Part shown: positions 22,463-36,677 of the stretch, piece by piece
How positions within the stretch are numbered: position 1 is the first letter of the stretch
Layout: each line of letters begins with the position of its first letter
The notes under the pieces: generated by a model
What the model saw: the letters and a program-made list of their open reading frames with translations, nothing else
Told to the model about the DNA's origin: nothing
Databases searched by the model: none
Source: Muribaculaceae bacterium
GTDB lineage: Bacteria; Bacteroidota; Bacteroidia; Bacteroidales; Muribaculaceae
Reading direction: 5' to 3'
DNA: 47,903 nucleotides
Assembly (NCBI GenBank): GCA_029060285.1
Contig: JAIDUH010000152.1
Span: forward strand, 1 to 47,903
Translations under genes and position numbers: made by a program

Positions 22463-22497
22463 ACACGGCTCTTTCATTTATGATGTCTTTCCGATGG
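22463..22497 (-). mobile_element. Truncated solo arm of the MITE-like element found at 34.1-36.2 kb
   Basis: ACACGGCTCTTTCATTTATGATGTCTTTCCGATGG matches the reverse complement of the right arm of copy 35779..35914 with one mismatch over 35 nt. Confidence 0.8.
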
Positions 22498-22531
22498 ACT
22501 TATCACTCAGTGTTCGCAATGCCGGAGGATT

Positions 22532-34097: not shown

Positions 34098-34114
34098 CAC
34101 TAATCTTTCTGGGC

Positions 34115-34219
34115 ACACGGCTCTTTCATTTAGCGTCTCTCTTCCAAAAGCACATCCCCCCCCTGCGGTCTCATCGTGATGTGACCATTGGAAAGATATC
34201 ATAAATGAAAGAGCCGTGT
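34115..34219 (+). mobile_element. MITE-like palindromic element, copy A (internally deleted)
   Basis: 18-bp perfect terminal inverted repeats ACACGGCTCTTTCATTTA / TAAATGAAAGAGCCGTGT; flanks TCTGGGC / TCTAGGC. Confidence 0.82.
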
Positions 34220-34414
34220 TCTAGGCATAACAAACTTAGTTCGGGAATTGGAACTATGGATGCGTCAGGCACTGATCTCTCTTTCAGAGCCGCAGAAATG
34301 GCAGATAAGCTCAGAAGTTAAATCTAAATTGGGGAATATGAATAAAAAAAACAATCCTATAGTGTTCAAGATTGACTAAATTATATTATCTTTGCGATTG
34401 CTAAGGCACACAGT

Positions 34415-34849
34415 ATGCGTGATGCCTTAGCAGATACCGTTTATGCAAAAACCGAATCTCTACATATGATGGCAGATGGTGTGTCCTTTGCAATCGAGAC
34501 CACTTTGGCTACACGTAGCTACAAGAACCTTGTTCTAAAGGCTCAGAAAAAGGGATATAATGTAAGTTTGCTGTTCTTCTGGCTTAAATCTCCGGAAGTT
34601 GCTTGCAGACGAGTGGCTCATAGAGTAGCGGAAGGAGGACATAATATCCCGATTGAGACAATATTTCGCCGATATTGGCTTGGACTCGAAAACCTTTTCC
34701 GTATATTCATGCCGATAGTGGACAATTGGGCGTTATATGACAATAATAATGAGACGAGTTTGATAGCAGATACAAACGGAATTACAAACCATCCTGTTTA
34801 TTCACAAATAATCAACTCTATATGTCAAAGGAAGAACAATTGGAAATGA
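34415..34849 (+). pseudogene. Zeta-toxin-like P-loop kinase, N-terminal Walker A half missing
   Basis: FAIETTLATRSYKNLVLKAQKKGYNVSLLFFWLKSPEVACRRVAHRVAEGGHNIPIETIFRRYWLGLENLF matches the C-terminal half of zeta-toxin-like kinases; no GxxGxGKT upstream. Confidence 0.75.
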
Positions 34850-35004
34850 GGGAAATCCTCAATAAGGCCCTCCAGGATTCTTATCATAAGATGATCGACC
34901 TTAAAAAGAAATTGGGTCAGACGGTCATCATTGCCGATAAGAATGGAATGCCCATCGAAGTTTCTGCTGAAGAAGCTGAGAGAATTGCTCATGCGCGGTC
35001 ATAA
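34822..35004 (+). CDS. Small protein partnered with the zeta-toxin-like gene (hypothetical)
   Basis: 60-aa ORF overlapping the 3' end of the toxin-like gene. Confidence 0.55.
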   Translation: MSKEEQLEMREILNKALQDSYHKMIDLKKKLGQTVIIADKNGMPIEVSAEEAERIAHARS

Positions 35005-35354
35005 TATCTGCAATAGCTGAATCTTTTTTCAACCTTGGCATATCTGTAGAAGCCTCACGCAAAGTACGCAAAGGTTTTTACAACGATTAACGAACAATTT
35101 TTGTTTTGCGTCGCAGTTGAAGCAAGTACGCTGAGATTACGGGCTGCTGCGCATCGCCCGGAACTCGCAGAGAAATAGCGCAGTTCATGCGCTAAAGAAT
35201 TACGAATCAACATTAAATAATAAGCAACACTTAAATTTCTGATTTTTTTACTGTTTACTTTCGTAATGCTTTTGGTATATACTTTCACAAGGCTAATCTA
35301 ACTCTCAATTTTGCGGGTTAGACGAAGTCTTATAGTTAAACTAAAAAAGTTATT

Positions 35355-35726
35355 ATGAAAAAGATTCTCATTATGGCGGCTGTGCTTCTCTGTGCCGGGA
35401 CCGCTTTCGCTGTCGAGCCAATGGCAAACGATGGCTCTGTACTGCTTGCTCAGTACAATAGTAACGAACAGGTAGTAAGAGCTTACTATCCCTACAACGG
35501 ACAGTTGGCTTCAATAAAGATCAAGATCAGAGGAAGCCATGTAGTAGCCTACTCCACAGGCAAAGACTATATTGGCAATGAAGAGTGGCGCATGGTTCAG
35601 ACTCCTGCCGGCATCACGCATACGGATTCCACGTTTGACGGACAATTAGCACGTGAGTTCAACAACAAGGCAACGCTTAATATCAGCGACGGCTACCACC
35701 AATCTCGTATTACCGTTTATTTCTAA
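35355..35726 (+). CDS. Small secreted protein (hypothetical)
   Basis: Signal peptide MKKILIMAAVLLCAGTAFA; intact 123-aa ORF. Confidence 0.7.
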   Translation: MKKILIMAAVLLCAGTAFAVEPMANDGSVLLAQYNSNEQVVRAYYPYNGQLASIKIKIRGSHVVAYSTGKDYIGNEEWRMVQTPAGITHTDSTFDGQLAREFNNKATLNISDGYHQSRITVYF

Positions 35727-35778
35727 AATATAATTTCTGTGAATATCTGTCAGTTCTGCGCTGGAATTAGTTCTGGGC

Positions 35779-35914
35779 ACACGGCTCTTTCATTTAGCGT
35801 CTCTCTTCCAAAAGCACATGATTGTGGTGCGAACGCAGTGAGCACATTCCTCCCCCCCTGCGGTCTCATCGTGATGTGACCATCGGAAAGATATCATAAA
35901 TGAAAGAGCCGTGT
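35779..35914 (+). mobile_element. MITE-like palindromic element, copy B
   Basis: Same 18-bp TIRs; flanks TCTGGGC (35772-35778) / TCTTGGC (35915-35921). Confidence 0.85.
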
Positions 35915-36060
35915 TCTTGGCATAAAAACTCAGTTCGGGAATTGGAACAATGGAGTCTTAGGCGCTGATCTCTCTTTCAGAGTCGCAGAACTTTCAGATG
36001 ATCTCAGATTTATTATTTCTGAGAATATCCGGCAGTTCTGTGCTGGAATTAGATCTGGGC

Positions 36061-36200
36061 ACACGGCTCTTTCATTTAGCGTCTCTCTTCCAAAAGAACA
36101 TGATTGTGGTGCGAACGCAGTGAGCACATTCCTCCCCACCCCCATGCGGTCTCATCGTGATGTGACCATCTGAAAGATATCATAAATGAAAGAGCCGTGT
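36061..36200 (+). mobile_element. MITE-like palindromic element, copy C
   Basis: Same TIRs; perfect 7-bp flanking duplication TCTGGGC (36054-36060 and 36201-36207). Confidence 0.88.
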
Positions 36201-36677
36201 TCTGGGCATAACAAACTTAGTTCGGGAATAGGAACTATCGAGGCATCAGGCTCAGATCTCTCTTTCAGAGTCGCAGAACTTTCAGATTAGCTCAGATTTA
36301 TTATTTCTGTGAATATCTGTTAGTTCTAGCGCTGGAATTAGATCTGGGCATAACAAGTTCTTTTCGGATTTTGGGAATTTTGGAAGCTTAGGCACTGATC
36401 TCTCTTTCAGAGGCGCAGAACTTTCATATTAGCTCAGAACTTTATTTTGAGAGTTTGGATTTGAATCGGTACAACTCCAACACTGAAAATTGACATCTTT
36501 TCTGTTTACTTTTAAATTGCTTCCGGTATTAAATTTCGGAGGAGTGATGAAAGAATTTAGAAAATAGGAAAATTATGGACTCCGGATAAAAATTTAATCA
36601 CTAAGTGAGCAAGTTTGACGAAAAATTATTATCTTTGCGATTGCTAAGGCACATACTCGCGTGTAGCCGAAGCGGAC

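Follow-up and report, generated by a model that had tools for sequence, protein, structure and literature searches.

Related elements in other bacteria

Short mobile elements of the MITE type have been described in Porphyromonas gingivalis, where the ends of MITE239, MITE464/PgRS, and BrickBuilt match those of the IS5-family insertion sequences ISPg1, ISPg3, ISPg4, and ISPg9 (PMC4596501), and in Anabaena sp. 90, where a single genome holds many copies of 77-541 bp whose ends match no insertion sequence found there (PMC3542288). Anabaena sp. 90 also carries ISAsp2, an insertion sequence of the ISAs1 family that is 1627 bp in length (PMC3542288).

The MITE described here was found in a window of 47,903 nucleotides (the whole stretch of DNA analyzed; contig JAIDUH010000152.1 of assembly GCA_029060285.1) from a Muribaculaceae bacterium. 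Similar to the P. gingivalis MITEs, it is short, non-coding, present in the Bacteroidales, and bounded by ends that match an insertion sequence (a resident one in P. gingivalis). In contrast, the P. gingivalis elements have IS5-family ends, while those of the window MITE are of the ISAs1 type, and the sequences are unrelated. The window MITE shares with the Anabaena MITEs the occurrence of many short copies in one genome, but unlike them its ends match full-length insertion sequences in related genomes. Neither the end sequence nor an ISAs1-related MITE from the Bacteroidales is described in the open literature (a name may exist in ISfinder). An earlier note on this DNA recognized no named family; consistent with this, no prior name was found in the open literature, but the element can be assigned to the ISAs1 type via the transposase discussed below.

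Copies of the MITE and their ends

Three sequences in the window are copies of a non-coding MITE, and a truncated end of the same family lies at a separate position:

34116-34218, forward strand: MITE copy A, 103 bp, with mismatch-free 17-bp inverted repeats at 34116-34132 and 34202-34218
35780-35913, forward strand: MITE copy B, 134 bp, with 17-bp inverted repeats at 35780-35796 and 35897-35913
36062-36199, forward strand: MITE copy C, 138 bp, with 17-bp inverted repeats at 36062-36078 and 36183-36199
22464-22500, forward strand: isolated, truncated right end belonging to this family, CACGGCTCTTTCATTTATGATGTCTTTCCGATGG (seventh 18-mer match, starting at 22463)

The family ranges in size from 103 to 139 bp, is non-coding, and has perfect 17-bp ends. 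All six of the 18-mers ACACGGCTCTTTCATTTA that had been reported as the inverted ends of the three copies were found without mismatch at their places, while 0.04 matches to the window 18-mer are expected in shuffled sequence with up to 3 mismatches. The reported absence of coding capacity in copies A, B, and C was likewise borne out. The inverted repeat itself is shorter than the 18 bp originally proposed. Since the base preceding CACGG differs among other copies, the repeat is the 17-bp sequence CACGGCTCTTTCATTTA, which is perfect in copies A, B, and C, and the eighteenth base is part of a target duplication of 9 bp. Copy A is without an inner 28-bp stretch that is present in copies B and C, and copy C is 97% identical to copies on two other contigs of the same genome (C173 and C56).

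Target-site duplications and empty sites

The target sites in the window are as follows:

34107-34115, forward strand: left target duplication of copy A, TTCTGGGCA (8/9 match to the right copy)
34219-34227, forward strand: right target duplication of copy A, TTCTAGGCA (one mismatch in nine to the left copy)
35771-35779, forward strand: left target duplication of copy B, TTCTGGGCA
35914-35922, forward strand: right target duplication of copy B, TTCTTGGCA (one mismatch in nine to the left copy)
36053-36061, forward strand: left target duplication of copy C, ATCTGGGCA (8/9 match; inner 8 bases, TCTGGGCA, perfect)
36200-36208, forward strand: right target duplication of copy C, TTCTGGGCA (one mismatch in nine to the left copy)
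36342-36350, forward strand: empty target ATCTGGGCA within the following unit of the host repeat (same junction in the relative G144, locus L270)

To determine the length of the duplication, stretches of 4 to 14 bases (L) on either side of the element were compared for 53 distinct insertions in which both flanks are available; these come from this genome, from its genus, and from named contigs of the Bacteroidales. A clear signal appears at L = 9 alone, with almost no duplications at other lengths. At 9 bp, the duplication is perfect in 20 of the 53 insertions and has no more than one mismatch in 31, while permuted-flank controls give a mean of 0.67 and a maximum of 5 under the latter threshold. 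Duplications of this length at other insertions include GTTTTGAGT, CTTATAAAT, TTATTGATG, TCTAAACCC, AAGTTTATC, and TCAGTGCCA, and no strong consensus emerges across the 31 duplicated target sites. The direct repeats previously noted around copies A, B, and C are therefore present, but they span 9 bp and not the 7 bp read from TCTGGGC at copy C; the single mismatches noted in A and B stand, and at 9 bp copy C also has one.

Empty sites were sought by comparing the joined flanks of twelve insertions with twelve relatives. Two exact, ungapped, element-free junctions were found, each containing a single 9-bp target. One is in G144 (target CTATATAAT, junction ...AAAATTATGACTATATAATAAATTGTC) and the other is in a second relative, G143 (target AAGTTTATC, junction ...TTCTTCTAAGTTTATCAATAAATTT). 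At the locus orthologous to copy A in G144 (L270), the element is absent and the host repeat contains ATCTGGGCA just once; the same zeta-toxin-like gene follows downstream, with 95% DNA identity. The short gene downstream of copy A in the window (34415-34849) has a weak match to Zeta toxin (PF06414, 26 bits, cut-off 22.3).

The element-free repeat unit in the window reads GGAATTAG-ATCTGGGCA-TAACAAG (36334-36357), as had been described for an unoccupied or precisely excised site near 36331-36356. The description of the unit holds, but an origin by precise excision is rejected because this unoccupied junction of the repeat recurs in a relative. What lies at 36342 is a repeat unit that was never filled, and not an excision scar.

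Dispersal in the genome and genus

A genome-wide search allowing up to 2 mismatches gives 42 matches to the MITE end, against 0 in the reversed control. Approximately twenty MITE copies are scattered over unrelated sites of this genome and have 9-bp duplications of their own. Since these ends are widespread across the Bacteroidales, they offer a useful handle for the annotation of short non-coding elements there. If the element were a fixed part of a larger repeat, lacking mobility of its own, the same long flanks would be expected everywhere, or variable flanks and duplications would be missing. The three window copies do have long flanks in common, but the approximately twenty other sites have unrelated flanks and 9-bp duplications of their own, host repeat units without the element exist in this genome and in relatives, and orthologous sites are empty. 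This reading is rejected on these grounds and retains hardly any probability.

One arrangement on contig C112 (L036, 413-627) contains a MITE at 498-627 with a perfect CTCCCCCTA duplication directly after a partial MITE at 413-497, a pattern that suggests insertion into, or beside, an older MITE copy.

Probable full-length partners of the ISAs1 family

Five elements of 1535-1607 bp from the genus and from named contigs are bounded by identical 17-bp ends and contain a transposase gene; in four of the five, its reading frame is open over 374-429 amino acids. The transposases match NCBIfam NF033564 (ISAs1 family) with 226-236 bits (cut-off 70; E values about 8e-67 to 4e-70), as well as the Pfam families DDE_Tnp_1 and DDE_Tnp_1_assoc. 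The residues D148, D209, and E337 are invariant in these proteins and are candidate DDE residues. A 1595-bp element in L149 is flanked by a perfect 9-bp duplication, TGACTCTAT, and its transposase gene appears shortened.

Like the ISAs1 family, the system has full-length partners of 1535-1607 bp, ends that begin CA-C-GG, and a 9-bp duplication. In contrast to the family, the window copies are without a transposase and have only the 17 end bases in common with the full-length elements, as the next bases differ. The ends CACGGCTCTTTCATTTA also differ from the CAGGG type of another ISAs1 element in the same genus (L278).

A candidate for the autonomous insertion sequence with the same ends that the earlier note proposed to look for was thus found elsewhere in the genus and in named contigs, but only as a fragment in this genome. 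The fragment, amino acids 5-91 of the transposase (53% identity), lies inside a 465-bp element on contig C123 that has the same ends and is evidently a deleted derivative of the full-length type. The assembly (81% complete, 224 contigs) yielded no intact ISAs1 transposase, and an intact partner copy may be absent merely from the assembly. The ISAs1 genes of G143 were considered as a partner and rejected, as their ends are different or the genes are broken. Since the full-length elements contain an ISAs1-family transposase enclosed by the same ends, the MITE is placed as a non-autonomous element of the ISAs1 type, and the shared end sequence suggests that it very probably moves with an ISAs1-family transposase.

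The element is intergenic and forms a long hairpin when folded (z -4.8 to -8.4), as might a transcribed hairpin RNA, a terminator, or a REP-type extragenic palindrome that is kept for its structure. Any element with inverted ends folds in this way, however, and no Rfam family scored above its gathering score. Target duplications, empty sites, and ends in common with ISAs1 elements would be unexpected for such a structure, which fails as the sole explanation on the duplications and empty sites and is considered very improbable. A secondary function of this type may exist beside the MITE nature of the element.

One insertion or three in the host repeat array

The window copies are embedded in a tandem repeat:

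35914-36470, forward strand: tandem units of the host repeat (element excluded, about 142-148 bp per unit) in and around which the insertions lie
34219-34319, forward strand: host repeat unit right of copy A, a mosaic in which the near part is of the occupied-unit type and the far part resembles its own ortholog

The repeat (34219-34319, 35710-36061, and 36200-36470) is intergenic and occurs at the genus level, with related units in eight other genomes.

Copies A, B, and C are located at the same point of this diverged repeat. Their bodies differ at 1/102, 3/134, and 4/103 positions (1-4%), while their right flanks differ at 17/100, 17/147, and 16/102 positions (12-17%; Fisher p = 3e-5, 2e-3, and 5e-3). 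The near flank of copy A has 4/44 differences from occupied unit C and 13/44 from the G144 ortholog, whereas its far flank has 29/46 differences from C and 5/46 from the ortholog. The lower divergence of the bodies relative to the flanks, together with the mosaic flank of copy A, suggests a single insertion spread by recombination or conversion, and the three copies are probably one insertion and not three transpositions. Specifically, the insertion and approximately 40 flanking bases may have been copied between units by recombination or gene conversion, a step that we rate slightly above even odds given that the evidence comes from a small number of positions in a single draft genome. To the left of copy A, resemblance to the host repeat extends over only about 9 bases, a point against a recombination breakpoint on that side. 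A single insertion followed by plain tandem duplication is disfavored, since it predicts equal divergence of body and flank and unequal divergence is seen.

Alternatively, three independent transpositions could have reached the same point of three pre-existing units through a target preference residing in the transposase or the repeat. In keeping with this, divergence among the bodies is far below that among the host flanks, and copy C is as near to copies elsewhere in the genome as it is to copy B; the tree of the MITE bodies is too weakly supported to establish A, B, and C as sisters. From independent insertions, however, one would expect duplications without mismatch and no private flank common to the copies. 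Instead, every duplication in the window is already mismatched while the bodies are nearly unchanged, and the presence of the element goes together with the state of the adjacent 40 or so bases. Furthermore, duplications elsewhere have no sequence in common that could fix the insertion point exactly. Three transpositions are consequently considered unlikely, and a single insertion with subsequent spread is preferred.

It is an even bet that the local copy number of a MITE can rise in this manner without transposition, via gene conversion between array units that leaves mosaic flanks and imperfect duplications. If so, copies spread by conversion would be misread as separate insertions, and exact inverted ends with apparent duplications inside a repeat array can lead to overcounting of transposition events.

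Proposed mechanism

The observations suggest a mechanism in which full-length elements (about 1.53-1.61 kb) would first produce an ISAs1-family DDE transposase. This enzyme would recognize the 17-bp ends of the MITE, act in trans, and insert the MITE at little-conserved sites to generate the 9-bp target duplication. In the window, one insertion would have occurred at TTCTGGGCA in an intergenic tandem repeat unit, and the inserted MITE would then have been carried to other units, giving A, B, and C, by homologous recombination or gene conversion, with the unit at 36342 remaining unoccupied throughout. We assign the whole account, an ISAs1-mobilized MITE with spread in the array, a probability of about 0.92, with the spread step keeping its own lower rating given above. 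It is well supported that the MITE family is real but of an ordinary kind, and the surprise is modest. Its value is that an uncultured Bacteroidales genus gains a defined MITE family together with a probable ISAs1 source, a 9-bp duplication, and orthologous empty sites.

A dispersed motif

This genome contains 36 occurrences of a dispersed motif of approximately 40 bp whose sequence is roughly CCCCAAAGCACAAGATTGTGGTGCGAACGCAGTGAGCACATCCC. Its flanks are unrelated, and at least 11 further genomes from the genus have it as well (L282-L298). The motif is found mostly outside inverted-repeat elements and is sometimes in tandem. It also lies inside MITE copies B (35807-35850) and C (36089-36132), and a second MITE type (L015) has the same motif in its interior.
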